The notes under the pieces were generated by a model. That model was not told the origin of the DNA and made no database searches. It saw only the letters and a program-made list of their open reading frames with translations. A DNA stretch of 64,000 nt from an uncultured Rhizobiaceae bacterium. GTDB taxonomy: Bacteria; Pseudomonadota; Alphaproteobacteria; Rhizobiales; Rhizobiaceae. Positions 13,409-32,731 of the stretch are shown here, piece by piece (positions within the stretch are counted from its first letter, which is position 1; the number at the start of each line of letters is the position of its first letter). A program made the translations under genes and the position numbers. The DNA is taken from the NCBI GenBank assembly GCA_947259295.1, contig CAMYMG010000079.1:62001-126000 (forward strand). Direction: 5' to 3'.

Positions 13409-13593
13409 GTTTGGCCTTTATCGTATCCGGCCCTGCAGGCGCGACCCGTTATTTGGAGTGGCGCCTACCGGATTTTAAGTGCAGATTTGATTTTTGCGCC
13501 AACAATTTCTCGAGATTGATCGCGGCGCTTTCCGACATGATACCGTCACAAATCGATCTGCCACAAGAAGCGGGTCGGAAAGGAATCGGTCAC

Positions 13594-14736
13594 GTGGAAC
13601 CCGAAACTGCGCTGTTCACCAGGGACCTCCCGGTACGCAACGAGTTTCGTACGGTACTCGACGAAACCTCCTACCAGGCAGCACCCGACGACTGGCTGAT
13701 TGCCGTGACCGATGTCGTCGGCTCACGCAAGGCCATTGCCGACGGCAAGTACAAGGCCGTCAACATGGCCGGCGTGGCGATGATCAGTGCCTTGATGAAC
13801 GCGCTGGGCACGCAGGAGGTGCCGTTCATCTTCGGCGGCGACGGGGCAGCCATTATCTGCGCGCCCTCCGACCGCGCCGTGGTCGAGAAGACAATGGCCG
13901 AAACGGTGGTGTGGGTGCTGGAAGACCTCGGCCTGACGCTGCGGGCGGCGCTGGTTCCGGTTGCAGTGGTGCGCGCCGAAGGTCTCGATGTCCTTGTCCA
14001 GGCCACCCGGGTGTCCGACGCGGTCAACAATTATGCTTTCAGGGGAGGCGGCCTGTCGCGGGCCGAAGCCTTGATGAAGGCGGGCCAATACGGCGTGGCG
14101 CCCGCGGCGCCAGGAAGCAAGCCGGATCTGAGCGGCCTGTCGTGCCGATGGTCGCCGATATCGTCCGACGGCGAAAGCATCGTGTCGATCATCATCGAGG
14201 CGGGCGAGCACGGCGAGCAAGAGTTCCCCGCAAAGGCTGCCCGGCTGCTGGAACTCGCCGGCATGGCGTTGCGCAATGCAGGATCGCCGATGCCGAAAGA
14301 CGGCCCGCCGATCGGCTGGCCGCCGAAGGGTCTGGATCTTGAGGCGAGGGCCATGCCTAGCCGGACTTCGCTCACAAGGCGAAGGATCTCGGTCTATCTG
14401 AGTACTCTGTTCGCGTGGTTCGTGTTCAAGACAGGCGTGTCGGTTGCCGGGTTCAATCCGAAACGCTACAAGGAATTTACTTCGCTCAATACGGACTATA
14501 GAAAATTTCAGGATGGATTGCGCATAACCGTGTCCCTGGGTGATGCCAGGCTGAAGAAACTGTCAGAATTTCTGGAGAATGAACGAAAGGCAAAAAATCT
14601 TCGCTACGGGCTGTGCGTTCAAGATAGTGCAATCCTCACCTGTTATGTGCCGTCCGTGACCTCGGATGCGCACTTCCATTTCCTCGACGGGGCAGGCGGG
14701 GGTTATGCCCAGGCGGCGGAGAATATGAGGGCATGA
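13594..14736 (+). CDS. DUF3095 family protein, possible nucleotidyl-cyclase-like domain
   Basis: A protein of about 380 residues of the DUF3095 family, function not established. Two stretches resemble the catalytic core of class III cyclases or GGDEF enzymes. One is a beta strand ending in TDVVGS (compare DIxGST). The other is a hairpin FIFGGDGAAII (compare GDGxMAxF or GGDEF), about 50 residues later. A later LTLRAALVPVAV strand sits where cyclases have their RIGxHxG strand. I chose the GTG at 13594 because AAGGA lies nine bases upstream. The in-frame ATG at 13537 is an alternative without a Shine-Dalgarno. It diverges from a cyclase gene and precedes the transport operon by about 105 bases with no strong terminator. 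Confidence 0.8.
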   Translation: MEPETALFTRDLPVRNEFRTVLDETSYQAAPDDWLIAVTDVVGSRKAIADGKYKAVNMAGVAMISALMNALGTQEVPFIFGGDGAAIICAPSDRAVVEKTMAETVVWVLEDLGLTLRAALVPVAVVRAEGLDVLVQATRVSDAVNNYAFRGGGLSRAEALMKAGQYGVAPAAPGSKPDLSGLSCRWSPISSDGESIVSIIIEAGEHGEQEFPAKAARLLELAGMALRNAGSPMPKDGPPIGWPPKGLDLEARAMPSRTSLTRRRISVYLSTLFAWFVFKTGVSVAGFNPKRYKEFTSLNTDYRKFQDGLRITVSLGDARLKKLSEFLENERKAKNLRYGLCVQDSAILTCYVPSVTSDAHFHFLDGAGGGYAQAAENMRA

Positions 14737-14841
14737 GGAGGTTTCCGGCGTTCAAGCACCGACGGAATGGGGGAAAGCCGGCCTGGTTGCGAAGATAGAT
14801 AGCAAGGCTCGACTGGCGTTTGGGGATTGGGGAACGACGAG

Positions 14842-16728
14842 TTGCAAGAGGGTGAGGTTCTTCGCGTAAGCGATCTCAAGGTGGCGTTCGACGTAAACGG
14901 GTCGCCGGTGGAGGTCGTAAAGGGCATCAGTTTCCGGGTGTGTTCGGGAGCCGTCACGGCAGTCGTCGGCGAATCCGGTTCCGGAAAGTCGGTGACCGCC
15001 CAGGCGATCATGCGGATCTTGCCGCGCAATGGCGCGATCACGGCGGGTTCGATCGAATTCCGCCCGGAATCGGGCGAGGTCACCGACGTCGTCCAGCAGA
15101 TGGCGAATGGCCCGTCGATGCGCGCGCTGCGCGGCTCGGCCGTGTCGATGATCTTCCAGGAACCAATGTCCTCCCTGTCGCCCGTCCATTCGGTGGGCAA
15201 CCAGGTCGAGGAAAGTCTGCGCATCCATGCGCGCGGCGCCGGCATGTCGCGCAAGGAGCTGCGCGAGGCGACCGAGGAAACGCTCGGTCTTGTCGGCTTT
15301 CCCAATCCCCACCGCGCCTACGACATGTATCCGTTCGAGATGTCGGGCGGGCTGCGCCAGCGCGCGATGATCGCCATGGCGCTGATCTGCCGCCCGGCGC
15401 TGCTCATCGCGGACGAGCCGACTACCGCGCTCGATGTCACGGTTCAGGCCCAGATCATCAAGCTTCTCAAGGAGTTGCAGGACAAGCTTGGTATGGCCGT
15501 CCTGCTCATCACCCACGATCTCGGCGTCGTCGCCAACATGGCCGACGAGGTTGTCGTCGTCTACGACGGACGCGTCGTCGAATCCGGGCCGGTCGAGGAC
15601 ATCTTCAGGGACCCGCGGCACGAATATCTGAAAGCCCTGCTCAATGCCGCGCCGCATTTCGACATGGCGCCCGATCACCGGCTGGCGGCGCTGCGTGGCG
15701 GCAACCGCGGCGTCATCGAGATGACCAAGGGCAAGGTCAAGCGCAGCCAGCCGGACGACCGCCCGCTGCTGACGGTCTCCGGCCTGAGCAAGATCTATCA
15801 TCTGCGGCGCGCCTCCATCTTCGGCGGCCCGGCCAAGGTCATCCGCGCCGTCGACAATGTCGCCTTCACCATCCGCCGCGGCGAATGCCTCGGCCTGGTC
15901 GGCGAAAGCGGCAGCGGCAAGACGACGGTCAGCAAGATCCTGACGCGCGCCATCACGCCGGATACCGGCACGATCATCTTCGACGATGGCGATGAGCAGA
16001 TCGACGTTCTCGCCCTCAACGAGCGCGACCTGAAGAGATTCCGCCCGCGCCTGCAGATGGTTTTCCAGGATCCGGTGAGTTCGCTCTCGCCGCGCATGAC
16101 GATTGGCGACATTCTGCGCGAGCCGATGCAGATTCACGGGCAGGGGAGCCGTTCCGAGCAGATGGCGCGCGCCAAGGACCTGCTGAGTTCGGTGGAGCTT
16201 GGCGTCAACGCGCTGAACCGCTACCCGCACAGTTTTTCGGGTGGTCAGCGGCAGCGCATCGGCATTGCTCGCGCCCTGGCGATGAATCCCGATCTTCTGA
16301 TCCTGGATGAGCCTGTGTCAGCGCTGGATGTCTCGGTCCAGGCGCAGGTGCTCAACCTTCTCAAGGACCTGCAGGCCGAAATGGGCCTGACCTATCTGTT
16401 CATCGCGCATAACCTCGCGGTGGTGAAATACATGGCCGAGCGGGTCGCCGTGATGGCTGCCGGCCGCATCGTCGAGATCGGCCCGTGCGAGTCCATCTTC
16501 GATGCGCCGGCCCATCCCTACACAAGGGCCTTGCTCAAGGCCGTGCCATTTGCAGATATTGACCGTCCGCTGGTGCTGGACGAACTCGTTCTCAAGGGCT
16601 CGTCCGATCCGCGCAACTGGCCTGATGCATTCCGGGGCGAGATGGCCGAACTCGCTGCAATCGATCTTGGCGAGGGCCACCAGGTCCTGGCTCGCCAAAC
16701 CGCTGACATAAGGGAGTTCCACGCATGA
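14842..16728 (+). CDS. Peptide-type ABC transporter, fused double ATP-binding protein (Yej/Dpp-like)
   Basis: A protein of about 628 residues with two complete nucleotide-binding domains. Walker A motifs GESGSGKS (near residue 45) and GESGSGKT (near 355), signatures MSGGLRQR and FSGGQRQR, and Walker B motifs [12 protein letters not shown] and [12 protein letters not shown] are all intact. This corresponds to DppD and DppF fused in one chain, as in YejF. I chose the TTG at 14842, preceded by GGGGA at eight bases. The TTG at 14827 lacks a spaced Shine-Dalgarno. Its stop overlaps the ATG of the binding protein (ATGA). It supplies energy for the importer encoded by the next three genes. Confidence 0.93.
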
Positions 16729-18623
16729 GGTACTTTGCTGCTCTCGCCGTAGTGATGATGGCGCTGGTCGGATCTGCCGGCGCCGAAGAGGCACCTCTGC
16801 TGGCCGAACTTGTTGCTTCCGGCAAATTGCCGCCGCAGGCGGAGCGGCTGCCGGACGAGCCGCGGGTCATGCAGATCGATGAATCGACGCAGCGAACCCC
16901 CGGCAAGCAGGGCGGTTCGATCCGCATGCTCATGGCCGACCAGAAAGACCTTCGCATGATCACGGTCTACGGCTATGCCCGTCTGATCGGCTACAACCGG
17001 TCCCTCGAACTTAAGCCCGACATTCTGCTGAGCTACGAGAACGAGAAGAACCGCGTCTTCACCCTGCACCTGAGGCCCGGCCACAAATGGTCGGACGGGT
17101 CGCCCTTCACGGCAGAAGACTTCCGCTACCAGTGGGAAGACGTGCTCACCGATCCGGACATGGATCGCGGCGGGCTCGACCAGGTGTTTCTGGCCGGCGG
17201 CAAGCCGCCGAAATTCGAGGTCATCGACCCGCTCACGGTCCGCTACACTTGGGAAACCCCGAACCCGCTTTTCCTGCCGGCGCTCGCCGGTGCGCGGCCG
17301 CTCGATATCTATGCGGCGTCCGCATACCTGAAGCAGTTCCACGCCAAATATGCCGATCCGGAGCAGCTGAAGGCTGAGGTCGCCAAGGAGAAGGTGAAGG
17401 ACTGGCAGTCGCTGCAGATCCGCATGGCGCGCAGCTACCGCCCCGAAAATCCCGACCTGCCGACATTGCAGCCATGGATGAACATGACGTCGCCGCCGTC
17501 GAACCGGTTCGTGTTCGACCGCAATCCCTATTATCACCGTGTCGACCAGAACGGCGTTCAGCTTCCCTATATCGACCGCCTGGTGATGAACATCGCCGAG
17601 AGTTCGATCATACCGGCCAAGACGGGCTCGGGAGAGTCCGATCTTCAGGAACGCTATCTGAGCTTCACCGACTATACCTTCCTGAAGGAAGGCGAAGAGC
17701 GCAACAACTACACGGTCAGGCTGTGGACGGTAGGCCGGGGCTCGGCCGTCGCGCTGTTTCCGAACCTGAACACGACCGACGCCGGCTGGAAGGAGGTCTT
17801 CCGCGATGTCCGCTTCCGGCGCGCGCTGTCGATGGGCGTGGACCGCACCCAGATCAACCAGGTGCTGTTTGCCGGTCTGGCCAAGGAAAGTGCCAGCACG
17901 GTGCTGCCGGGAAGTCCGCTGTTCCGCGACGAGCTCGGCGAGGCCTATGCCTCCTTTGATCCGGATGCTGCCAACGCATTGCTCGACGAGATGGGGCTGA
18001 AGCGGTCGCCGGCGGGCGTGCGGCTCTTGCCCGACGGTAGGCCGATGGACCTCATCGTCGAAAGCACGGGTGAAAGCTCCATGGAGGCCGATGTCCTGGA
18101 GCTGATAACCACCGACTGGGCCGATCTCGGCATCAAGGTCTTCACGCGCACCAGCCAGCGCGACATCTTCCGCAGCCGCGTGGCGGCCGGTTCCACGCTG
18201 ATGTCGGTCTGGGCCGGGGTCGACAACGGCGCCCCGACCGCCGATTTCAGCCCGCAGGAATTCGTGCCGACAGACCCCTACCAGCTGCAGTGGCCGATGT
18301 GGGGAACCTATGTCAGCACCCATGGCAGCGCCGGCGAAAAGATCGACTACGAACCGGCCCAGAAGCTGGTCGACCTCTACGGCCAATGGCTGTCGGCCGA
18401 AGACGACGATCAGAAGAGAAAGATCTGGGCGCAGATCCTGGACATCAATGCCGAAGAGGTCTTTTCCATCGGCATCGTCACCGAAACGCTGGTGCCGGTC
18501 GTTGTTTCCAACAATCTGATGAACGTCCCGGCCGAAGGCATCTCGAGCTTCGATCCCTACGGCTATTTCGGCGTCTACGAGATGGATTCCTTCTGGATGA
18601 AGAACGCCGGCCAGGGCAACTAA
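16725..18623 (+). CDS. ABC transporter substrate-binding protein, family 5 (peptide-type)
   Basis: A 632-residue periplasmic binding protein with a Sec signal peptide (about residues 1-20, ending GSAGA). The family 5 hallmark FTLHLRPGHKWSDGSPFTAEDFRY is recognisable across about residues 104-128. At over 600 residues it is longer than typical DppA/OppA (about 530) and nearer the YejA-like class, which fits the fused ATPase. The ligand is unknown. Peptides are the default, but family members also bind nickel, opines or other solutes. A hairpin at 18666-18694 separates it from the first permease. Confidence 0.92.
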   Translation: MRYFAALAVVMMALVGSAGAEEAPLLAELVASGKLPPQAERLPDEPRVMQIDESTQRTPGKQGGSIRMLMADQKDLRMITVYGYARLIGYNRSLELKPDILLSYENEKNRVFTLHLRPGHKWSDGSPFTAEDFRYQWEDVLTDPDMDRGGLDQVFLAGGKPPKFEVIDPLTVRYTWETPNPLFLPALAGARPLDIYAASAYLKQFHAKYADPEQLKAEVAKEKVKDWQSLQIRMARSYRPENPDLPTLQPWMNMTSPPSNRFVFDRNPYYHRVDQNGVQLPYIDRLVMNIAESSIIPAKTGSGESDLQERYLSFTDYTFLKEGEERNNYTVRLWTVGRGSAVALFPNLNTTDAGWKEVFRDVRFRRALSMGVDRTQINQVLFAGLAKESASTVLPGSPLFRDELGEAYASFDPDAANALLDEMGLKRSPAGVRLLPDGRPMDLIVESTGESSMEADVLELITTDWADLGIKVFTRTSQRDIFRSRVAAGSTLMSVWAGVDNGAPTADFSPQEFVPTDPYQLQWPMWGTYVSTHGSAGEKIDYEPAQKLVDLYGQWLSAEDDDQKRKIWAQILDINAEEVFSIGIVTETLVPVVVSNNLMNVPAEGISSFDPYGYFGVYEMDSFWMKNAGQGN

Positions 18624-18665
18624 GCCATGATCGCGTCGCCGTCGCACCCGCAGACTTCCAGTCAC

Positions 18666-18694
18666 GCCGACCTGCGAACAGTCCGCAGGCCGGC
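18666..18694 (+). other. Intergenic hairpin between binding-protein and permease genes
   Basis: GCCG/CGGC and CCTGCG/CGCAGG arms (18666-18676 with 18684-18694) flank a seven-base loop, with one mismatch. It lies 42 bases after the binding-protein stop and has no U tail. It is a likely mRNA-stabilising or differential-expression hairpin rather than a full terminator. Confidence 0.45.
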
Positions 18695-18747
18695 GCGAAT
18701 GGCGCCCGCGGCGGCCGGAACACTACGAGAAGGCGCGGTCTAGCATC

Positions 18748-19746
18748 ATGCTCTACTATATCTTCCGCCGCGTCCTCATGATGATCCCGACGCTGATCAT
18801 AACCAGCGCCCTGATCTTCGCGATCATCGAAGCGCCGCCCGGCGACTATCTTGAGAGCTACATCGCAGAGTTGCAGGCCCAGGGCGAGGCCGTCGATACG
18901 GCCAAGATCGAGTATCTCCGGAAGGAATACGGCTTCGACAAGACTCCCGTCGAACGGTATTTCACCTGGGTGTCGGGCATGTTTGTCGGGGATTTCGGCT
19001 ATTCCTTCGCCTATGAGTTGCCGGTGACAGCTGTCGTGGGCGACAGGATCTACCTGACGATCCTGGTCAGCATGGCCACCATCATCTTCACCTGGCTAAT
19101 CGCCTTTCCGATCGGCATCTACTCGGCCACCCACCAGTACAGCTGGAACGATTACGGCTTCACGTTTCTGGGTCTGCTCGGCCTGGCGACGCCGAATTTC
19201 CTGCTTGCGCTGGTGCTGATGTATCTTGCGAATGTCTGGTTCGGCACGTCGATCGGCGGGCTTATGGACCCACGGTTTGTCGGGCAACCCATGAGTTGGG
19301 CCAAGTTTCTGTCCGTGCTTGACCATCTGTGGGTTCCGGTGATCGTGATCGGCACATCTGGAACGGCCGGCATGATCCGCCGCATCCGCGCCAACCTGCT
19401 CGACGAACTGCAGAAACAGTATGTCACGACGGCGCGGGCCAAGGGCCTTCACCCCTTTCGCGCGCTGGTCAAGTATCCGCTGCGCATGTCGCTGAATTTC
19501 TTCATCTCCGACATCGGCTCGCTGCTGCCGGCCGTCATCTCAGGCGCCGAGGTCGTGGCAATCGTGCTGTCGCTAGAGACGACAGGGCCACTGTTGATCT
19601 CAGCGCTCCAGAGCCAGGACATGTATCTCGCCGGCTCGTTCCTGATGTTCCTGTCGCTGCTGACCGTTGTCGGCGTACTCATCTCCGACATTGCGCTCGC
19701 CTATCTCGATCCGCGCATACGGCTAAGCGGCGGGGTGCGCAAATGA
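18748..19746 (+). CDS. ABC transporter permease, DppB/YejB type
   Basis: A 332-residue inner-membrane permease with about six helices. The first helix begins at the N-terminus (LYYIFRRVLMMIPTLIITS), followed by a large periplasmic loop typical of DppB. The EAA-type coupling loop is seen as YVTTARAKGLHPFRALVKY near residue 230. Its stop overlaps the next gene's ATG, so the two permeases are translationally coupled. It pairs with the downstream DppC-type permease. Confidence 0.93.
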   Translation: MLYYIFRRVLMMIPTLIITSALIFAIIEAPPGDYLESYIAELQAQGEAVDTAKIEYLRKEYGFDKTPVERYFTWVSGMFVGDFGYSFAYELPVTAVVGDRIYLTILVSMATIIFTWLIAFPIGIYSATHQYSWNDYGFTFLGLLGLATPNFLLALVLMYLANVWFGTSIGGLMDPRFVGQPMSWAKFLSVLDHLWVPVIVIGTSGTAGMIRRIRANLLDELQKQYVTTARAKGLHPFRALVKYPLRMSLNFFISDIGSLLPAVISGAEVVAIVLSLETTGPLLISALQSQDMYLAGSFLMFLSLLTVVGVLISDIALAYLDPRIRLSGGVRK

Positions 19747-20912
19747 CGCTGCCCAAGAACGCTGCGCCCCTGGCCCACACAGTGACGGATGCGCCTTTCG
19801 ACCCGGAGGCGATCTATCAGTACACCGACGCCCAGAAATCGCTGTTCGAAGCGTCGCAGCTGCGCTTGATGTGGTGGAAGTTCCGCCGCCACAAGCCGGC
19901 ACTGATCTCGGCGATATTCCTCGGGCTCCTCTACCTCTCGACACTGTTTTCCGAGGTTCTGGCCCCCTACAACCTGCATACCCGCCACTCCGGGAGCATT
20001 TACGCTCCGCCACAGTCGGTGCATCTCTTTCACGATGGGCAGCTGCGCGCGCCTTTCGTCTACGGCTACGATTTCAAGCTGAACATGGAGAACCTGAAGC
20101 GGGAATACGTGCCGAACACGGACAAGATCGAAACCATCCGGTGGTTTTGCAGTGGCGACGACTATGATTTCTGGGGTGTCATCCCGGCGAGTTTCCACAT
20201 CGCCTGTCCGGCCGAGGGCGGCAGCCTGTTCCTGCTTGGAACCGATCGTCTCGGCCGCGATGTGCTGAGCCGCATCATCTACGGCGCGCGGATATCCCTG
20301 ACCATCGGCCTGCTGGGGGTTGGCGTCAGTCTCGTGCTGGGAATCCTCATCGGCGGCATGGCCGGCTATTACGGCGGCCTCTTCGACGTCCTCAGCCAGC
20401 GCCTGATCGAGGTGATCCAGTCGATCCCGTCGATACCGCTGTGGCTCGCGCTGGCTGCGATCCTGCCGATCACCTGGTCGCCGATCTTCGTCTATTTCGG
20501 CATTACGGTAATCCTTGGCCTGCTTGACTGGACCGGACTCGCGCGAACGGTTCGCTCGAAGCTTCTGGCGCTGCGCGAGGAGGATTATGTTTCCGCCGCC
20601 CAGGTGATGGGCGCAAGCAGCTTCCGGATCGTCTCGCGCCACCTGATACCCGGCTTCGCCTCGCATCTGATTGCCACGGCAACGATCGCCATTCCGACCA
20701 TGATCCTCGGCGAGACGACGCTGAGCTTTCTGGGGCTAGGGCTGAGGGCGCCGATCACCAGTTGGGGCGTGCTGCTGACCGAAGCCCAGAACATCAACGC
20801 GGTGGCTCTCTACCCCTGGCTCCTGTGGCCGGTGCTTCCCGTCATCCTCGTCGTGCTTGCGTACAACTTCCTGGGCGATGGGCTGAGAGACGCCGCAGAC
20901 CCCTACAAATAG
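19743..20912 (+). CDS. ABC transporter permease, DppC/YejE type
   Basis: A 389-residue inner-membrane permease. After a cytoplasmic N-terminus and one helix (about residues 55-75) comes a long periplasmic segment of about 100 residues. It ends in LGTDRLGRDVLSRIIYGAR, the conserved DppC entry motif. Five more helices follow. The EAA loop is EEDYVSAAQVMGASSFRIV. The ATG at 19743 overlaps the preceding stop. An open frame continues upstream to 19329 but only as an out-of-frame read of the previous permease. The long loop after helix one resembles YejE. Confidence 0.93.
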   Translation: MTLPKNAAPLAHTVTDAPFDPEAIYQYTDAQKSLFEASQLRLMWWKFRRHKPALISAIFLGLLYLSTLFSEVLAPYNLHTRHSGSIYAPPQSVHLFHDGQLRAPFVYGYDFKLNMENLKREYVPNTDKIETIRWFCSGDDYDFWGVIPASFHIACPAEGGSLFLLGTDRLGRDVLSRIIYGARISLTIGLLGVGVSLVLGILIGGMAGYYGGLFDVLSQRLIEVIQSIPSIPLWLALAAILPITWSPIFVYFGITVILGLLDWTGLARTVRSKLLALREEDYVSAAQVMGASSFRIVSRHLIPGFASHLIATATIAIPTMILGETTLSFLGLGLRAPITSWGVLLTEAQNINAVALYPWLLWPVLPVILVVLAYNFLGDGLRDAADPYK

Positions 20913-20998: not shown

Positions 20999-23677
20999 AT
21001 GAGCGACAGAATGGAGCGGAACCTTTTCAGGTACATCTGGAGCCATTCGAAGCGCCAGCAGATCTGGATTCTGTTCGTCGTTGCCTTGTCGATGCCGACC
21101 TACTTCCTCGCCTTCGACATTCCGAAACTGATCGTCAACGGACCCATCCAGGGCAAGGGCTTCGAAACCCCGGACGCCACCCAGAAAGTGCTGCCGATCG
21201 AAATCGGCAATCCGTTCGGCGAAGGCTCGCTGACGATCTTCAGCGGCTTCGAGCTGGACCGCATGAACGCGCTTATCGCGCTCAGCATGGCGTTCCTCGG
21301 CTATGTCATCATCAATGGCATGTTCAAGCTCTACATCAACACCTACAAGGGCAGGCTCGGCGAGCGGATGTTGCGCCGCCTGCGCTATCAACTGGTCGAC
21401 CGGGTTCTGAGGTTTCCCTTTCCCCAGTATCGCCGCGTGCGCAGTTCCGAAATCGCGACAATGATCAAGGACGAGGTCGACCCGCTGGGCGGCTTCATCG
21501 GCGAGGCCTTTGCGACCCCGGCCTTTCTCATCGGCCAGGCTCTTTCGGCCCTCATCTTCATCATGCTGCAGAGCTGGATTCTCGGCATGGTGACCTTGGC
21601 CATACTGGTGGTGCAGACCGGGCTGATCCCGAAACTGCGCGGCCGGTTGCGCAAGCTCGCCCTGCAGCGCCAATTGACGGCCCGCGACCTGTCGGGACGT
21701 GTCAGCGAGATCGTCGACGGGGCAACGGACATCAGGCTCAACGACAGTTCGAACTACGAGCGCTCCGACATCGCCGACCGGCTGGCCAGGATTTTCTTCA
21801 TCCGTTTCGACTTCTATCAGTGGAAGTTCATGGTGAAGTTCATCAACAACTTCCTTGCGCAGTTCACGCCTTTCGTCTTCTACCTGGGCGGCGGCATATT
21901 GGCGATCCGCGGCAGCCTCGATATCGGACAGCTGGTGGCCGTCATCGCCGCCTACAAGGACCTGCCCGGGCCGGTCAAGGAACTGATCGACTGGGACTAT
22001 CAGCGGCTCGACGTGCAGGTGAAGTATCTGCAGGTCGTCAACGCATTCGACGTCACGCCCCTGACGCCCGCCATCTCGCAGGAGGTTAAGCCAGACAGAT
22101 CCCCGAGCCTGAACGGTCCGTTCGTCTTCCATCAGGTGTCGGCGACGGACGAGTCCGGCAAGGCGCTCCTGACCGGACTGGACCTGACGATCGGCATCGA
22201 CGAGCGGGTAGCGGCCCTTGGCGCCACCGGCGACGGGGCCGAGGTGGTGGGCGATCTGATCACCCGGCTGGTCGCCCCGTCGGCCGGAACCATCAATGTA
22301 GGCTCGACCGCGCTGGCCAGCATCCCCGAATGGCAGACCGGACGGCGCATCGGCTATGTCGGACCGGAACCCTTCTTTGCGCATGGGACGGCTCGCGACG
22401 CCCTGCTGAGCGGACTGCGCCACGCCCCGTTCAAACCGGCGCCTGAAGAACTGGCGATGACCCCGCTCATTCTCAGGGAAGCCAAGGCTTCCGGCAACCC
22501 GCTGCTTGACCGGCGGGCCGACTGGATCGACTACGAGGCCGCCGGGGCTTCGAACAACCAGGAACTCGCGGAGCGCATCACCGAGGTGCTCGGCCTCGTC
22601 AGCCTTGAAGAGGATTTCTACGCCTTCGGGCTGCGGACCAAGCTCGCCGACGACACTGGGGGCGATGGCGAGGAGATGTTCCTCAACGCGCGCAGGATTT
22701 TCCTCGATCGCCTGACCAAGGACGACAACGCCGCCGACGTCGAGCCTTTCGACGTCACCAAGTTCAACTCGCAGATGACGATTTTCCAGAACCTGGTCTT
22801 CGGCGCGGCTTCCTCACCGGAATATCTGCCGAGCGAGATACCGGCGGACTCGCCGCTCTGGAAATTCCTCGCGATCGACGGTCTCGACCGGCGCCTCTAC
22901 GAACTCGGGCGAGAGGCCTCGGCCGTCATCGTCGATCTGTTCGGCGAAGTCTCCGACAACATGAAGATCCTCGAACGACTGGATCTGATCGATCCGACGA
23001 AGCTGTCGGACTACAGCGCGGCGTTGGGCAAGACCGACGGCGTCGACTTTGCCAATGTTGCCGAGCAGGACCGTCAGAAGTTCACCCGCGTCGCATTGAG
23101 CTACAATGAGCCGCGTCACCGCCTGGATCTGCTGACCGACGACGTGCGCAAGGCCGTGGTCGATGCCAGAATGACTTTCCGGACCAAACTCCCCCCGGAT
23201 ATGGCGGCTGAATTCTCGTTCCACGATGCCGACCAGATCAATCCCTACGCATCGCTGCAGGACAATATCCTGTTCGGTCGTATCGTCGATGGCCGCGCCG
23301 GAGCCGTCGATCGCATTGGCGCGCTGCTGCGCGAAATTCTCGAGGAGCTGGACCTGTCCTATGCCGTTCTCGAGCGCGGACTGAACTATGAAATCGGCTC
23401 CGGCGGTCGCCGGCTGTCGCTGTCCCAGCGTCAACAGTTGGGGCTTGCACGTGTATTGCTAAGGCGTCCAGAATTCCTCATCGTTAATCGCGGCTTGAAC
23501 GCGCTGGACAATCGAACGGTGGAGAAGGTGATCCAAAGCCTACTGGAGGTCTCTGACAAGAATGGCGAACGATTTGGCATGTTGTGGATTACGTCTCAGG
23601 AATCGCATGCCGCGATGTTCGATCGCGTCTTGAAGTTTTCGCGTGGCGAGCTGGCATCGGACGAGGCCGTGGCATGA
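20999..23677 (+). CDS. ABC-exporter-like membrane protein with a degenerate (pseudo-ATPase) nucleotide-binding domain
   Basis: An 892-residue protein laid out like an ABC half-exporter. About six membrane helices occupy residues 20-325, and a nucleotide-binding-like domain starts near 375. Every catalytic element is altered. Walker A reads GATGDGAE (408-415, no Lys). The Q-loop region YVGPEPFFAHGT (453-464) lacks Gln. The signature is LSLSQRQQ (806-813). Walker B is FLIVNRGLNALD (826-837, Asp to Asn and Glu to Arg). The H-loop region WITSQES (863-869) has no His. About 340 extra residues separate the Q-loop region from the signature, where about 50-100 is normal. ATP hydrolysis is therefore unlikely. 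The gene lies 86 bases after the importer permease and 94 bases before the CNB gene on the same strand. Confidence 0.88.
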   Translation: MSDRMERNLFRYIWSHSKRQQIWILFVVALSMPTYFLAFDIPKLIVNGPIQGKGFETPDATQKVLPIEIGNPFGEGSLTIFSGFELDRMNALIALSMAFLGYVIINGMFKLYINTYKGRLGERMLRRLRYQLVDRVLRFPFPQYRRVRSSEIATMIKDEVDPLGGFIGEAFATPAFLIGQALSALIFIMLQSWILGMVTLAILVVQTGLIPKLRGRLRKLALQRQLTARDLSGRVSEIVDGATDIRLNDSSNYERSDIADRLARIFFIRFDFYQWKFMVKFINNFLAQFTPFVFYLGGGILAIRGSLDIGQLVAVIAAYKDLPGPVKELIDWDYQRLDVQVKYLQVVNAFDVTPLTPAISQEVKPDRSPSLNGPFVFHQVSATDESGKALLTGLDLTIGIDERVAALGATGDGAEVVGDLITRLVAPSAGTINVGSTALASIPEWQTGRRIGYVGPEPFFAHGTARDALLSGLRHAPFKPAPEELAMTPLILREAKASGNPLLDRRADWIDYEAAGASNNQELAERITEVLGLVSLEEDFYAFGLRTKLADDTGGDGEEMFLNARRIFLDRLTKDDNAADVEPFDVTKFNSQMTIFQNLVFGAASSPEYLPSEIPADSPLWKFLAIDGLDRRLYELGREASAVIVDLFGEVSDNMKILERLDLIDPTKLSDYSAALGKTDGVDFANVAEQDRQKFTRVALSYNEPRHRLDLLTDDVRKAVVDARMTFRTKLPPDMAAEFSFHDADQINPYASLQDNILFGRIVDGRAGAVDRIGALLREILEELDLSYAVLERGLNYEIGSGGRRLSLSQRQQLGLARVLLRRPEFLIVNRGLNALDNRTVEKVIQSLLEVSDKNGERFGMLWITSQESHAAMFDRVLKFSRGELASDEAVA

Positions 23678-24229: not shown

Positions 24230-25081
24230 ATGTCGGAGCCTGCAGCTATCGACGTCCAGATCTGGGGCGCGCGCGGAACCTTTCCAATGGTCGGCGAGGA
24301 AGCCCTGGATTACGGTGGCCACACGTCATGTGTTGAGGTTCGCGCGGCCGGCCGCGTCATGATCTTCGATGCCGGCAGCGGCATCATTCCGCTCGGCAAG
24401 TCGCTCCTGGAAGAGGGTGTCACCGAAATCGACCTCTTCTTCAGCCACGTCCACTACGACCACATAATCGGGCTTCCCTATTTTCTGCCGGCGTTCTGGA
24501 ACAAGGCCAAGCTGCGCATCTGGGCCGGCCACATGCAGGACGGCTCGACGCCCGAGCAGCTGGTGGACGGTATCTTCAGGCAGCCCTATTTCCCGATTAC
24601 CAAGGACTATATGCGCGCCGAGGTCGAATACTGCCAGTTCAAGCCGGGCGATATTCTGACGCCGGGTTCTGGTGTGAGGATCGTCACGGGGTCGCTCAAC
24701 CACCCGAATGGCGCAGTCGGGTATCGTGTCGAGGCCAAGGGCGCTAGCTTCGCCTACCTGACCGACTTCGAGCATGACAACGGCGCCGGCGACGCCGAAG
24801 TCATGCGCCTGGCGCAGGGAGCCGATCTTGCCCTGCTCGACGCCACCTATACGCCGGAAGAATATCCTCGATACGTGAAGTTCGGGCACTCCACCTGGGA
24901 TCACTGTGGCGACCTGTGCGCGCGGGCCGGCGTGAAGCGGTGGGGCATGTTCCACCACATGCACATGCGCAGCGACATCGACCAGGCGGAGATCGAGAGT
25001 GCCGCCCAGGCCAAGTATCCGAATTCCATCGCGGCCCGGCAGGACCAGCGTTTCGAGCTTCCTGAACGGGGCCGGAAGTGA
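24230..25081 (+). CDS. MBL-fold metallo-hydrolase, candidate cyclic phosphodiesterase
   Basis: A 283-residue metallo-beta-lactamase-fold protein with the metal motif SHVHYDH (H73, H75, D77, H78). Further likely ligands are H158 (SLNHPNG), D179 (YLTDFEHD) and H242/H243. The N-terminal GARGTFP and YGGHTSC segments are typical of the PhnP-like cyclic phosphodiesterase group. That group includes enzymes acting on cyclic phosphates, so cNMP hydrolysis is a reasonable inference from the neighbouring CNB and cyclase genes, not a demonstrated function. Its TGA overlaps the GTG start of the cyclase gene, implying translational coupling. Confidence 0.85.
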   Translation: MSEPAAIDVQIWGARGTFPMVGEEALDYGGHTSCVEVRAAGRVMIFDAGSGIIPLGKSLLEEGVTEIDLFFSHVHYDHIIGLPYFLPAFWNKAKLRIWAGHMQDGSTPEQLVDGIFRQPYFPITKDYMRAEVEYCQFKPGDILTPGSGVRIVTGSLNHPNGAVGYRVEAKGASFAYLTDFEHDNGAGDAEVMRLAQGADLALLDATYTPEEYPRYVKFGHSTWDHCGDLCARAGVKRWGMFHHMHMRSDIDQAEIESAAQAKYPNSIAARQDQRFELPERGRK

Positions 25082-26454
25082 CATCGCTGCCCTACCGTTA
25101 CCGGCGGCTTCTGATCCCGATCCTGGGGCCGAGGGTTACGGGCACGCTGCCTGAGCAGACGACGGCGGCCATCGAAGAGCAGGAGAACCGCGGCGAAATT
25201 CTCGTCAAGCTGCTGCAGATTCTCATCGTTTCGATCTGGGGCGTGCTCTATGCGGTGTCGCCGAAGGCGGAAACCAGCGGGATGGCCCTGGCGCCCTACG
25301 CCATAGCCATCTATTTGGTAGCGAACGGTCTCGGTCTCGCCTGGTGCCTGCGCCGGCGCATTCCCGATTGGGCCGTCTATGTCTCCATCCTCTTCGATAT
25401 GCTGCTGCTCTACGCCGTCATCTGGAGTTTCCACGTCCAGTACATGCAGCCGCCGGCCTTCTACCTGAAGGCGCCGACCTTCATGTATGTATTCGTCTTC
25501 ATCGCGCTGCGCGCACTGCGGTTCCAGCCGCGCTTCGTGCTCGCAGCCGGCGGGGCGGCCGCGCTCGGCTGGCTGCTGATGATCGGCTATGTCGTGGTAT
25601 CGGACCCGCTGGGAACCACAATTACCCGAAACTACGTGACCTACCTGACCGGAAATCTCATGCTGATCGGGGCGGAGATCGACAAGGTCATCGCCATCCT
25701 GATGGTCACCGGAATTCTGGCAATGTCGCTGGCCCGCGGGCGGGACCTGCTGGTCCGATCGATTTCGGAGACGGCGGCGGCCAAGAGCCTGTCGCGCTTC
25801 TTCGACAACAGCATCGTCGAAGAAATACGCGCCGGCGAGCAGATGATTGCGGCCGGCGAGGGGATGGTGCGCAACGCTGCCATCCTGAACGTCGACATCC
25901 GCGGCTTTTCGCGTCTCGTCGAAAACCGGGAGCCTTCCGAGGCGATCCGCATTCTGGCCGCCTACCAGCATCGGGTGGTGCCGATCATCCAGAAGCACGG
26001 CGGCGTGATCGACAAGTTCATGGGTGACGGCATCATGGCGACGTTCGGGGCGGTGCGAAGCTCCGACAGCTACGCCGCCGACGCCCTGCGTGCCATGGAC
26101 GCGGTGATCGACGACATAGGGTCTTGGGAAAGTGATCCCGACCTCGCCATCCTGACGGCAAACGGCATCGGCATCGCGGTGTCGGCCGGACCCATCGTGT
26201 TCGGCGCGGTGGGAGATCGCGAACGGCTCGAGGTCACCGTCATCGGCGCCACCGTCAATCTGTCGGCCAAGCTGGAGAAGGCCAACAAGTCGCTGTCCTC
26301 ACAGGCGATCGCCACGCGTGCCGCATTCGATCTTGCGGTCGAGCAGGGGCATAAGCCGCAGCGCGCCCCGCGCTTTGTCGATGCCCATGTGGACGGCATC
26401 GGCTCGCAGACGCCGGTCGCGGTCTGGGCTCGCGACACGCAGCTGCTTCCCTGA
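25078..26454 (+). CDS. Membrane-bound class III adenylate cyclase
   Basis: A 458-residue protein. Six predicted membrane helices lie at about residues 44-60, 71-90, 97-118, 132-147, 152-174 and 202-218. A cytoplasmic cyclase domain starts near 265. Metal ligands D273 (NVDIRGFS) and D317 (FMGDG), the adenine-specifying pair K313 and T387, and N394 are present. The position of the usual transition-state Arg is K398 (VNLSAKLEK), a substitution seen in a known bacterial subfamily. ATP is the likely substrate. The GTG start overlaps the preceding TGA. The stop codon abuts the stop of the convergent deacetylase gene with no spacer. Confidence 0.9.
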   Translation: MTSLPYRYRRLLIPILGPRVTGTLPEQTTAAIEEQENRGEILVKLLQILIVSIWGVLYAVSPKAETSGMALAPYAIAIYLVANGLGLAWCLRRRIPDWAVYVSILFDMLLLYAVIWSFHVQYMQPPAFYLKAPTFMYVFVFIALRALRFQPRFVLAAGGAAALGWLLMIGYVVVSDPLGTTITRNYVTYLTGNLMLIGAEIDKVIAILMVTGILAMSLARGRDLLVRSISETAAAKSLSRFFDNSIVEEIRAGEQMIAAGEGMVRNAAILNVDIRGFSRLVENREPSEAIRILAAYQHRVVPIIQKHGGVIDKFMGDGIMATFGAVRSSDSYAADALRAMDAVIDDIGSWESDPDLAILTANGIGIAVSAGPIVFGAVGDRERLEVTVIGATVNLSAKLEKANKSLSSQAIATRAAFDLAVEQGHKPQRAPRFVDAHVDGIGSQTPVAVWARDTQLLP

Positions 26455-27222
26455 TCAATCGTTCGGTTGCTGGCTGAGGGGCGAGACCCATCTTGCCACG
26501 GCACTCGCTCGCAACAGGTCGAGCCACATGGCGTTGAACGACCAGCTTGCTTCATCCTGCACCAGGTGATGCGTCAACAGGCCCAGCGGTTCGGTATTGT
26601 CGGCCACACCCTGGCGGCGATCCTCAAGTTCTCCGAGAATAGTGCCAGCCAGCTGCGCCGTATCAACCAGCCCGCCGCCGGCATGCCACGCGATCGGGTC
26701 GATATGCGTGTTGACTTGCCACAGGCCATCGGCGGCGCGGCTGCTATTGCGCCGACCGAAAGTCGAAAGACCGCGCAGGCCTGCTTGCGGCAGCCCGGCG
26801 ACAAGTTCCGGGGCAATCCGGTTCCACGGCGGGGTGAAGACGGGAAGTGCCTGAGCGCCGAAGAGACCGCCGATGCGGCGCCAGCCTCTCTCGATCTCCT
26901 CAAGCATTTCCGTGACCGGGCGATGCGGGCCGAACTCGGCCTTCTTCTGGTCTGGTGGAGCGTGGTTCGCGTGTTTCCAGCCATGCGGCAGCACGGAGAC
27001 ACCCGCGGCTCCACGCAGCCGCTCGACGAGTTCCTGCGTGGCGGGCTCGGGAATGACGGCCAGGTGCAAGGGAACCGCGAACCCGGCCGACAGCGCCAGC
27101 AATCGGTCGAGGGCAGGGGAAGGCACGGTCGCATCGTCGTCCCGCCACCAGACCGGCAGAACCAGTCCCATCTCGCGCCAGAGCGCGAGTTCGGCAACAA
27201 CGGTTTGAAACTGCTCGATCAT
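26455..27222 (-). CDS. Polysaccharide deacetylase-like protein
   Basis: A 255-residue protein of the NodB/carbohydrate esterase 4-like fold. The metal-binding start motif appears as WWRDDDA near residues 25-31. The zinc His motif is LPHGWKHANH near 78-87, and TPPWNR marks motif 3. It probably removes N-acetyl groups from a glycan made by the neighbouring glycosyltransferases. There is no signal peptide, so a cytoplasmic or lipid-linked precursor is a possible substrate (inference). Its ATG overlaps the stop of the upstream GT28-like gene, and it is the last gene of a six-gene operon. Confidence 0.82.
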   Translation of the reverse strand: MIEQFQTVVAELALWREMGLVLPVWWRDDDATVPSPALDRLLALSAGFAVPLHLAVIPEPATQELVERLRGAAGVSVLPHGWKHANHAPPDQKKAEFGPHRPVTEMLEEIERGWRRIGGLFGAQALPVFTPPWNRIAPELVAGLPQAGLRGLSTFGRRNSSRAADGLWQVNTHIDPIAWHAGGGLVDTAQLAGTILGELEDRRQGVADNTEPLGLLTHHLVQDEASWSFNAMWLDLLRASAVARWVSPLSQQPND

Positions 27223-28364
27223 GACCGGTCGGCCAGCATGTCGAGCACGATGCGGCTCGAGCGCTCGGCGCCGTCGAGATGCAGGCCGCTTGCCGTGAAC
27301 CGGCCTCTGCGGATCGCGCGATCCGCGGCTCCGGCGAGGTTTTCCGGCGTCAGATCCGATTCCGCGATCTGTTCGAAGCCGAACCTGTCTGCGAGCGAAG
27401 CAGCGCGGATGGTCTGTTCTACCTCGCCTTCTTCGGCGAAAGGCACGAAGACCCCGGGCACGCCGGCCTGCAGCCAGTCGATTGCGGTATTATAGCCGCA
27501 TTGGCCCACAGCGGCGGCGCATCGTGCCAGCATCTGGCGGTAGTCGGACCGCGCCGGCTCCGCGACCATCGGCGCACCCGAGGCCTCACGGTTGAGGCGC
27601 TCGCTGAACGCGGCCGCATCTGCCCCACCGACGAGAAGCCGCCAGCGATGGCTGCCCAGGCGAGCCGCCTTGGCCGCCGTATCGAACAGTTTGCGGCCGA
27701 CCGGCCCCCCGCCCGCCGTGACGAGGATCTCGCCGGCGCCTTCGTTTCCCTGGCGATTGTCCGGGGCGAGGGGGGCGGCTATGAAGCCGGTGTAATGCAA
27801 CAGTTCTGCGGTGCTCGGCGTCAACGGCCAGCTCGCCTCGAGCGGCAGGACTTCGGCATCGGAATGAACCAGAACGCCGTCATAATATTCGCCAAGCCAG
27901 GCCTCGGTCTGCGCCGCCTTGGCGGCACTTGATGGCGGCGCGAGAATATCTCTGACCGACGAGAGAATGAGCGGCCGCTCGTCCATTGCCCTGGTCGCGG
28001 CAAGCGCCGCCTCGAACTCGGTGCGCAGCATGCGGCGGCCGAAGGGAAACAGTTCGGTAAGGAGGACGTTCGGAGGCGTGCGGCCAAGGGCTGCAACTAT
28101 CGCCTGAGTGCGCTCCTCCATGAGCGCCGGGGTTGCGGGGTTGCCCTGCCGGTCGAGCAGCCGCGTGAAGCCCGCGCCGTCCGAACGAACCGGCGGCAAT
28201 TGCACGAAGTCGATGCCCGATATGTCGAGATGGCCGGTCGCCATCCCTCCCGAGATAAGCTGGGGCTGCATGCCGGCGTCGCGCAATGCCCGCGCCAGGA
28301 TGATCGCGCGGCTCAAGTGGCCGGTTCCCAACAGGTGGGTGACGAGAAGGGTGACGAGCTTCAC
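27219..28364 (-). CDS. Glycosyltransferase, GT28/MurG-like
   Basis: A 381-residue GT-B-fold protein without membrane segments. The N-terminal motif THLLGTGHLSRA (residues 9-20) is the Gly-rich acceptor-side loop of MurG-like enzymes. The C-terminal half carries a Gly-rich donor-binding strand (LVTAGGGPVG) and the segment GQCGYNTAIDWLQAGVPGVFVPF, which matches the GGxxT-E-x-GxPxhhhP donor motif. The sugar donor is unknown. The operon overlaps are tight on both sides (ATGA with the phosphatase and with the deacetylase). Confidence 0.83.
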   Translation of the reverse strand: MKLVTLLVTHLLGTGHLSRAIILARALRDAGMQPQLISGGMATGHLDISGIDFVQLPPVRSDGAGFTRLLDRQGNPATPALMEERTQAIVAALGRTPPNVLLTELFPFGRRMLRTEFEAALAATRAMDERPLILSSVRDILAPPSSAAKAAQTEAWLGEYYDGVLVHSDAEVLPLEASWPLTPSTAELLHYTGFIAAPLAPDNRQGNEGAGEILVTAGGGPVGRKLFDTAAKAARLGSHRWRLLVGGADAAAFSERLNREASGAPMVAEPARSDYRQMLARCAAAVGQCGYNTAIDWLQAGVPGVFVPFAEEGEVEQTIRAASLADRFGFEQIAESDLTPENLAGAADRAIRRGRFTASGLHLDGAERSSRIVLDMLADRS

Positions 28365-28933
28365 GCGGCGACTTTCTCGACAAGCCGCACCGGCTGATTG
28401 TCGAAGCCGAGTGTGCCGTCATCACTGATGTCGATTCGGTAGAGCCGATCCCGCTTCACCTGGAAAGGAGGAAGGCCGTCGAACTCCCATCCCGTTGCCC
28501 GCGCGAGCAAAACCCTCATGATTCCGATGTGGGTAACGACGACGGCCGATCCTTCGAGCGATTTGACCCAGGTCTTCAGGCGATCCCAGACCGCGGCAGG
28601 CGTTTCGCCGCCGGGTGGACGAAAATCCCATCCCCATTCCTCGATGTGGCGATAGCCCGAACCCGTGTCGGCGAGCAAGTCAACACCGCGGCTGCCTTCC
28701 CAGCGTCCCCAGTCCATTTCCACCAGTTCAGGCGCAATGACGGGCTCGCGGCCTGCGACGAGTCTCGCGGTCTCGATAGCCCGCGTGAGTGGACTTGAGA
28801 TCAGCGCTGCGTCGTTGAATTCTTCGGGCAATTGCAACCTCGCCAAGTGGGCTCGCGCGGCGTCGTCAAGCGGCTGGTCGATCCGCCCCTGGATCCGGCC
28901 GGCGCGGTTCCACGCCGTGTGGCCGTGGCGCAT
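28361..28933 (-). CDS. Histidine phosphatase family protein
   Basis: A 190-residue phosphoglycerate-mutase-like phosphatase beginning with the catalytic RHG motif (MRHGHTAWNRAG). Later conserved elements are SSPLTRAIETA, E92-type acid residues in the VEMDWGRWEG segment, and the second catalytic His in VVTHIGIMR. In this operon it may dephosphorylate a sugar or a lipid-linked intermediate (inference). The ATG leaves only one residue before RHG. Eight further in-frame codons lie upstream without a standard start. It overlaps the downstream GT28 gene by four bases. Confidence 0.85.
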   Translation of the reverse strand: MRHGHTAWNRAGRIQGRIDQPLDDAARAHLARLQLPEEFNDAALISSPLTRAIETARLVAGREPVIAPELVEMDWGRWEGSRGVDLLADTGSGYRHIEEWGWDFRPPGGETPAAVWDRLKTWVKSLEGSAVVVTHIGIMRVLLARATGWEFDGLPPFQVKRDRLYRIDISDDGTLGFDNQPVRLVEKVAA

Positions 28934-28953
28934 CAGGGCAATGCGGGCGGAGA

Positions 28954-30045
28954 TCAGTGGTATTCTTTCGTGATGAGGGGGCGGAGCGCTTCGGTCAAAG
29001 TCGCGCGTGCATTGGCGATGAGATGGTCTGTCGCGACCTTCTCGCGCGCCTGGCGCCCGACACGAAGACGGCCGTCCGCATCCGAAATGATGGATTCGAT
29101 GGCCCTGGCATAGGCTGGCACGTCGTTTGCCGGCGTCAGCCAGCCGCCGCCTTCGACCACGTCGCGAACTCCCGGCCTGTCCTCGGCAAGAACAGGGCAG
29201 GCCTCAGCCTGCGCCTCAAGATAGACCATGCCGTAGGCCTCGCCGACGCCCGGCCAGACCAACGCGTCGCAGCGGCGGAACTGTTCGTTGACCCCGTCCT
29301 GGTCGAGTGCGCCCAGGAACGTCACCCGCTCGCCAAACCTCGAGAACAATGCCTCCACCTCCGCCCTTGCCGCGCCGTCGCCGACGATCGTAAGCGTCCA
29401 ACTGCCTGTCCGCACCTGAGCAAGCGCCGATGCCAGCACCTGATAGCTTGCGAGCTTGTCTCCGGGGCGGAACATGGCACAGGCGAGTAACCGCGTCATG
29501 TCATGGCTGGGACGGGCAGGAGCAGCATCGAGACTCTCCCGATTGAGGAACGGCTTCAGCCAGACGAGCTTCTGGTTCGACGTGCGGTCGCGCTCCAGCG
29601 CTTCCCGGTCATAGTCGGTCAGATAGAATATTAGGTCTGCGGCGTCGCACGCTTCTTCCGCGGCTTTCGCGAACCGGGCGTAGGGTCCCTTCAGCCGGCT
29701 CGACGCGCGCGTTGCCTCGATCAGCGCGTAGGGAATTCCCCAGTGCCTGGACAGAGCCGGACCCAGCAGGTCGGGCGCCTTGTAGTAGGAGTGATAGGTC
29801 AGCCAAAGGGCGGGAGGATTTCGCTCTGAAAGTTTTTCGATTTCGGCCCGTGCGGCCATCTCGATCGCCTTCTGGACCGCTTCTTCGCCGTGCTTATCCC
29901 GGCTGCGCAGCCGGCTGATCAGGATGACGTCTCCGAGTTCCGACGATGTCAGTGCGGAAACCAGCGCCCGGGCCATGGTGCGGTCGCCGGACGGCACAGC
30001 GTCGTCCGGTGGCTTCATCGGGGCATAGAACGCGATCTCGGCCAT
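28954..30045 (-). CDS. Glycosyltransferase, GT4-like
   Basis: A 363-residue GT-B protein. The C-terminal half has the GT4 pattern: LLACAMFRPGDK, TLTIVGDGAARAEVEAL, VTFLGAL, and the donor-binding WPGVGEAYGMVYLEAQAEACPV with its E-x7-E motif. The start is the ATG at 30045, four bases after the upstream stop. The frame is open further to 30144, but that stretch lies inside the previous gene. The role is addition of one sugar in the locus glycan. Donor and acceptor are unknown. Confidence 0.85.
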   Translation of the reverse strand: MAEIAFYAPMKPPDDAVPSGDRTMARALVSALTSSELGDVILISRLRSRDKHGEEAVQKAIEMAARAEIEKLSERNPPALWLTYHSYYKAPDLLGPALSRHWGIPYALIEATRASSRLKGPYARFAKAAEEACDAADLIFYLTDYDREALERDRTSNQKLVWLKPFLNRESLDAAPARPSHDMTRLLACAMFRPGDKLASYQVLASALAQVRTGSWTLTIVGDGAARAEVEALFSRFGERVTFLGALDQDGVNEQFRRCDALVWPGVGEAYGMVYLEAQAEACPVLAEDRPGVRDVVEGGGWLTPANDVPAYARAIESIISDADGRLRVGRQAREKVATDHLIANARATLTEALRPLITKEYH

Positions 30046-30049
30046 GCGG

Positions 30050-32493: not shown

Positions 32494-32731
32494 CGTCAAT
32501 CCCGCTTCTCGTCGACTGGCCGGGCAAATGAACAGGTCATCTGGAGGGCGGGCTACCATTAACCGGCGAGGGCCGATTTGTGAATAGCACGGCCGTTTTC
32601 TCGGGCCATCCCAAAATCGGCCGTCGGGTCTTTCGCACGGGCGCTGAAACCCCTAAGTGACTGCGAGGCCGTGCAAAAGCGCGGCCGTTGGACGTTCGCC
32701 TGCCGTTGGGACACGGTATTGAAGGAGTATC

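Follow-up and report, generated by a model that had tools for sequence, protein, structure and literature searches.

An ABC-exporter homologue from a Rhizobiaceae bacterium with a predicted catalytically dead nucleotide-binding domain and a linked cyclic-nucleotide-binding protein

We analysed a 64,000-nucleotide stretch of DNA (hereafter the window) from an uncultured Rhizobiaceae bacterium, in which a gene for an 892-residue ABC-exporter homologue is followed by one for a 150-residue protein with a cyclic-nucleotide-binding (CNB) domain. Upstream are genes for a class III cyclase, a DUF3095 protein and an oligopeptide-type ABC importer, and downstream are those for a metallo-beta-lactamase (MBL)-fold protein, another class III cyclase and a six-gene glycan block (Table 1). 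The best NCBIfam matches of the MBL-fold protein were to ribonuclease Z models, and a further match was to a model for a cyclic-nucleotide-degrading phosphodiesterase, all of them weak. The cyclase gene overlapping it probably encodes a membrane-bound enzyme, judging by eye from the hydrophobic N-terminal half. Pfam gave no match for two genes of the glycan block (26455-27222 and 31288-32559), and the name deacetylase-like for the former is a provisional label only. The DUF3095 protein also recurs beside cyclases in some related clusters.

Table 1 Features of the window, with positions counted from its first nucleotide.
Feature	Position (nt)	Strand	Evidence and remarks
Second class III cyclase	12146..13408	-	PF00211, 5.5e-11; type recurring in clusters
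DUF3095 protein	13393..14736	+	PF11294, 6.3e-111; match in 19 loci
Oligopeptide-type ABC importer	14827..20912	+	Pfam for first three genes; second permease assigned from its recurrence and from annotated relatives
Importer, fused ATPase	14827-16728	+	
Importer, substrate-binding protein (SBP) family 5	16725-18623	+	
Importer, permease	18748-19746	+	
Importer, second permease	~19.74 kb to 20912	+	
ABC-exporter homologue, 892 aa, NBD catalytically dead by sequence	20999..23677	+	Open frame; Pfam ABC_membrane and partial ABC_tran; AlphaFold mean pLDDT 82.4
Transmembrane domain, residues 1-355	20999..22063	+	Best-conserved part of family; helices in AlphaFold model; column entropy
Walker A remnant GATGDGAE, residues 408-415	22220..22243	+	Lys414 to Ala, next Ser/Thr to Glu
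Repeat copy 1, residues 441-549	22319..22645	+	Native Q-loop and helical segment; HHalign 94% to copies 2 and 3
Q-loop position 456	22364..22366	+	Gln to Pro; alignment with L027-L030
NBD insert, ~residues 476-745 (~270 residues)	22424..23233	+	Edges by eye; in 26/26 aligned members; absent from L027-L030
Repeat copy 2, residues 554-639	22658..22915	+	HHalign 99%, E 2.4e-18 to copy 3
Repeat copy 3, residues 713-796	23135..23386	+	Runs into signature; HHalign profile comparison
Signature remnant LSLSQ, residues 806-810	23414..23428	+	Both signature glycines lost; Gln810 invariant in 47-row clade
Walker B remnant FLIVNR, residues 826-831	23474..23491	+	Asp830 to Asn, Glu831 to Arg; Asn830 in 47/47 clade rows
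D-loop NALD, residues 834-837	23498..23509	+	Kept; alignment with L027-L030
H-loop position 866	23594..23596	+	His to Ser; alignment with L027-L030
CNB protein, 150 aa	23772..24224	+	Conserved partner; PF00027 as sole Pfam domain, 2.7e-20
MBL-fold protein	24230..25081	+	Weak NCBIfam matches (65.7 and 47.3 bits), far below cut-offs
Class III cyclase	25078..26454	+	PF00211, 2e-7; overlaps MBL-fold gene
Glycan block, six genes: glycosyltransferases, histidine phosphatase, 26455-27222	26455..32559	-	Pfam for 4/6; recurrence

The initial annotation described a long exporter-type frame, free of frameshifts, in which every ATPase motif had been lost. The frame was confirmed as a single run of 892 codons with no internal stop. 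Pfam ABC_membrane matched residues 90-317 (4.4e-20) and, for the nucleotide-binding domain (NBD), the N-terminal part of ABC_tran matched best over 391-483 (3.1e-8 counted across the protein), while NCBIfam exporter models such as MsbA matched with scores well below their cut-offs. Motif positions were mapped by alignment to canonical exporters of related genomes (L027-L030), and in this alignment the residue set of a functional ATPase (Walker A Lys, Walker B Asp-Glu, LSGGQ, Q-loop Gln and H-loop His) was absent from the protein. Complete loss therefore holds for the catalytic residues and not for every letter, as the D-loop NALD, the signature Gln810 and the Walker A glycines remain. Two near relatives, L002 (87%) and L003 (73%), carry identical losses in open frames, so an assembly error does not explain them.

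The fold of the NBD appears to be kept. Confidence in the AlphaFold model reached a pLDDT of ~90 across much of this domain, and the predicted NBD core superposed on that of ComA with Z 27.1 at 1.9 A over 225 residues (VIA-align); the best Foldseek E value was 9e-16. On this model, the protein has a type IV ABC exporter fold, with an ABC_membrane transmembrane domain (TMD) followed by an ABC-fold NBD. Between Q-loop and signature lies the large insert. Predicted alone, the insert reached a pLDDT of 88.3 and had no match among solved structures at E <= 0.001; the best VIA row gave Z 4.0, and rows for the ABC helical subdomain gave Z 3.4 and 2.7, all weak matches. Profile comparison revealed three copies of a unit, consisting of the segment around a YN..AT..EN.LFG motif and the helix that follows, and four control comparisons with TMD segments all scored <1% (HHalign). 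In two relatives (L174:7934-10522 and L176:8956-11802) the triplicated insert is kept and the TMD has strongly diverged. The initial annotation did not describe the insert, the CNB partner or the linkage to a glycosyltransferase/glycan cluster.

The CNB gene lies directly downstream of the ABC gene in 138 of 153 loci and is fused to its C-terminus in another 13, mostly within one group of the tree; one of the two remaining loci ends before the CNB position and the other has no CNB. The ligand-cassette Glu and Arg, which we take to be marks of cyclic-nucleotide binding, were found in 145 and 155 of 156 rows, respectively, and the window CNB keeps both. With a CNB adjacent or fused and its cassette Glu and Arg present, the protein is, on sequence grounds, a CNB-linked exporter homologue. 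The window's own genome (~86% complete, 4.1 Mb) has six PF00027 matches, and a relative of the window CNB is annotated 'Crp/Fnr family transcriptional regulator'. A CNB domain does not necessarily have a cyclic nucleotide as its ligand, as that of HetC bound ppGpp and not cAMP (available sections of PMC10986499).

Across the 137 loci of at least 15 kb, matches to the glycosyltransferases of the window occurred in 101, to its cyclases in 56 and to its importer SBP in 53; within the fetched stretches, 36 loci had no glycosyltransferase match and 81 no cyclase match. These counts cover the fetched stretches only and have no background control and, as the window's own genome holds 15 cyclase matches, some of the linkages could be due to chance. 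A second exporter ORF, searched with a canonical HMM, was found in 1/137 of these loci. The same HMM recovered 34/34 known exporters (33 of them its own training genes, the independent one being L028) and 137/153 family ORFs; it replaced a family-HMM criterion that had recovered only 14/34 known exporters. On this count, a canonical partner half encoded in the cluster, as expected of a degenerate-site heterodimer, was rejected. Ten upstream or nearby ATPase ORFs that score with the family HMM were considered as such partners and rejected, since all have either two ABC_tran matches or oligo_HPY and none has ABC_membrane, which identifies them as importer ATPases.

A comparable arrangement was found in Sinorhizobium meliloti. 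In strain R14 the order is DUF3095, nucleotide-sugar dehydrogenase, cyclase, importer, glycosyltransferase, methyltransferase, ABC, CNB, FkbM methyltransferase and LacI regulator, and the region in strain 1021 has the same order with extra glycosyltransferases. Of these R14 genes, those for the ABC, CNB, importer and cyclase are found in the window as well, in a partly changed order. Counting back from SM_b21272, the LacI regulator (available text of PMC11387232), the ABC and CNB genes would lie near smb21269 and smb21270, and we infer that this is the cluster for the surface-located phazolicin-protecting polysaccharide, PPP (smb21252-smb21271). By gene content and order the window locus is PPP-type, the locus tags being inferred. 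An earlier lead to msbA2 was abandoned once the LacI neighbour had placed the cluster.

In the available sections of PMC10128002, nine genes within smb21252-smb21271 are needed for PPP, an uncharacterised surface polysaccharide, transposon insertions in the region strongly lower fitness with phazolicin, and smb21252 and smb21265 mutants are more sensitive to this peptide. The same sections cite control by cAMP of genes that may contribute to PPP and report only a small effect for a cyaA mutant on retest. Seven of nine PPP genes were induced under attack by Myxococcus (PMC10315480, in the part available). The sections of the PPP literature available to us describe no function for the ABC and CNB genes; smb21267 to smb21270 were not mentioned in the open-access literature searched, and no smb2125-smb2127 tag appears in the main text of the NCR247 paper (PMC5539429).

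We further investigated the spread of the family. Near-full-length relatives were present in 26/61 searched genomes, the window's own included. At 1e-40, the family HMM matched 98/289 genomes of the class, some partially, and 32/398 genomes of the phylum; 31 of the latter belonged to the same class, and the remaining match was TMD-only on a short contig. Among 262 matching plasmid records, 224 were from Rhizobium or Sinorhizobium. The 179 sequences collected gave 170 distinct rows, including the partial L023 and L090, which were excluded from the 168 complete rows and from the tree. Retention across the 170 members was low for every catalytic residue (Walker A Lys 40, Walker B Glu 34, Walker B Asp 23, H-loop His 17, Q-loop Gln 14). 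The Walker A Ser/Thr was replaced by Glu or Asp in 137/170 and the Walker B Asp by Asn in 129/170. All six tested features were gone in 99/168 complete rows and all six kept in none. Two genomes carry several copies with a fused CNB and strongly eroded NBD motifs (G214 three, G446 two; L167-L169, L180 and L181).

A quick tree of 119 rows, built with the motif columns excluded and without bootstrap, placed the window protein in a supported 47-row clade. Almost every named record in this clade belongs to the Hyphomicrobiales; the others are a Cypionkella MAG and an unclassified proteobacterium. No row in it has the Walker A Lys, and the following position is Glu or Asp in 39/47. The initial annotation asked whether the substituted positions are themselves conserved, and the answer was divided: Asn830 is invariant, as is Gln810, and Arg831 occurs in 37/47, whereas positions 808-809 of the signature, 456 of the Q-loop and 866 of the H-loop are not conserved. 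As aligned, the dead site is part frozen and part relaxed. Rooting with four canonical exporters was dropped because long branches met, the root was weak and L030 filled 17% of columns; we therefore used unrooted change counts only (Lys 16, Glu 15, Asp 13, His 8).

Constraint on the gene was assessed by Nei-Gojobori dN/dS, with dS near saturation. Against L002 the ratio was 0.09 for the whole gene (dN 0.085, dS 0.97) and 0.06 for 65 codons around the motifs (dN 0.070, dS 1.23), with dN 0.036 and dS 0.77 for the TMD and dN 0.125 and dS 0.99 for the insert. Against the more distant L003, dN/dS was 0.23 over the whole gene and 0.12 both for the motif codons and for the TMD, and it rose to 0.38 in the insert, the least constrained part. 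The low dN/dS that the initial annotation asked for was thus found in both comparisons and, together with Asn830, upholds its reading of selected loss and not decay. Canonical orthologues, which it named as the mark of a recent decaying allele, appeared in part: two of the 168 complete rows, both distant relatives, keep Lys, Asp, Glu and His together. The confinement of canonical residues to distant relatives argues for an old, clade-wide loss.

Conservation was also distributed unusually between domains. Within the clade, mean column entropy was 1.04 for the TMD versus 1.74-1.95 for the NBD parts. Comparing 24 family members (L023 left out) with the 30 best canonical loci, the NBD was less conserved than the TMD in 24/24 family comparisons (mean -21 points) and more conserved in 29/29 comparisons of the canonical exporter of the same relatives (mean +18). 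This reversal was again seen among the 40 Lys-retaining members, in which the NBD exceeded the TMD in just 19/778 pairs, suggesting that dependence on the ATPase may have slackened before the Walker A Lys was lost. A best-conserved TMD would fit a retained TMD function (e.g. transport) and the scaffold, receptor or regulator proposed in the initial annotation equally well.

Neutral decay of a redundant transporter would account for the drifting motif positions and for an ABC gene split over frames in two published Sinorhizobium records (1021 pSymB, L193; AK57, L112), be these real alleles or sequencing errors. However, frames are open in most relatives, the gene reads through in Sinorhizobium strains 2011, SM11 and R14, dN/dS lies at 0.09-0.25 and one substitution is invariant. 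For the 47-row clade we hold decay, recent decay included, to be refuted by dN/dS and Asn830, and its overall probability to be negligible. It is also improbable, if less extremely so, that the protein remains an ATP-powered exporter, using a non-canonical site or pairing with a canonical half encoded elsewhere. Retention of the Walker A Lys and Walker B Glu in a minority of relatives is in its favour, a partner gene could lie far from the cluster, and even strong degeneration of a site need not abolish MgATP binding, which counts against a pseudo-ATPase: NBS1 of Pdr5 (Lys to Cys, Glu to Asn, His to Tyr, LNVEQ) has an affinity comparable to that of the canonical site (sections available of PMC7756269). 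A homodimer, however, would carry two dead sites, the long loci offer a second exporter ORF only once, and an acidic residue mostly occupies the Walker A Ser/Thr position.

Two further explanations are each unlikely, yet clearly less so. In one, the TMD would work like SbmA/BacA, an exporter-type TMD without ATPase, leaving the NBD as a structural relic. SLiPTs are proton driven. Conservation in the family is concentrated in the TMD, and homologues of 292-425 residues (stop to stop) consist of a TMD with no NBD match (L183:9043-10317, L184:9016-10227, L185:1-1146, L186:8913-9944, L187:9462-10337 and L188:9571-10653); L185 begins at a contig end, and five of the six share a genome with a full-length protein. 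For L183, L184 and L186, ABC_membrane was the sole Pfam match. These relatives, in which the TMD persists alone, keep the explanation alive, and BacA is named as a SLiPT in the available sections of PMC10128002. Against it, the NBD is under purifying selection with one frozen substitution, and the insert, which a relic would not need, is kept family-wide. In the other, the protein would transport nothing; it would be a receptor for cyclic nucleotides in the membrane, or a scaffold for signalling there, and would regulate the glycan machinery through direct contact. The near-obligate CNB partner, the cyclases and MBL-fold protein in part of the clusters and the missing catalytic residues all suit such a role, but TMD conservation exceeds the need of a pure anchor, and the CNB is the only partner protein identified.

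The explanation we favour, at roughly even odds of being right, is a pseudo-ATPase: an ABC-derived membrane protein under CNB control that serves a surface glycan pathway. An ABC exporter has lost its catalytic residues across the 47-row clade and kept the predicted NBD fold, with the TMD under the strongest constraint; the dead NBD and triplicated helical segment would now form a docking and transmission platform. The CNB, with or without cyclic nucleotide from cyclases (some of them in the cluster), would bind this platform and set the TMD conformation through the coupling helices, in place of ATP. As the cluster suggests, the TMD may serve a PPP-type surface polysaccharide, either as a gate for export, as a flippase or as a regulator in the membrane; any transport would draw its energy from a source other than ATP hydrolysis at its own NBD. 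More speculatively, ligand binding by the docked CNB may have replaced ATP as the driver of the TMD, turning an ABC pump into a channel or flippase gated by cyclic nucleotides that controls a protective surface polysaccharide across the Alphaproteobacteria, a proposal to which we give a modest chance of being right.

The half-transporter layout and fold are those of type IV (ABCB/MsbA-like) exporters such as TmrAB, TM287/288, MsbA and PglK, from which the window protein differs in its missing catalytic residues, its NBD insert, its TMD being more conserved than its NBD and its CNB partner. Loss of catalytic residues at an ABC site is shared with Pdr5, TAP, CFTR and SUR; in contrast to the window family, with its near-total lack of a nearby second exporter ORF, these join a degenerate to a canonical site. 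CFTR and SUR are also familiar ABC proteins turned to other uses. SbmA/BacA likewise may work through an exporter-type TMD without ATPase, but the window protein keeps a predicted NBD fold, which sets it apart from SLiPTs (TMD without NBD), and NBD loss is confined to side branches. HetC-type exporters of Nostoc share the tie between CNB and exporter through an N-terminal CNB domain, whereas in the window family the CNB is separate or C-terminal and the window ATPase appears dead; HetC needs its ATPase and peptidase (PMC10986499, available sections).

The ABC fold and degenerate sites are already known, and what appears new here is a bacterial family combining dead sites, a triplicated segment and a CNB partner. 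Our searches of the open-access literature gave no bacterial family in which a presumed homodimer has two dead sites and is accompanied by a triplicated helical segment and a near-obligate CNB partner. This widespread family of dead-NBD proteins, with several stages of motif loss and NBD-less relatives, would allow a stepwise study of how ABC proteins are repurposed. It may also supply genetically accessible candidates for factors that control a surface polysaccharide, one that reportedly shields a rhizobium against an antimicrobial peptide.
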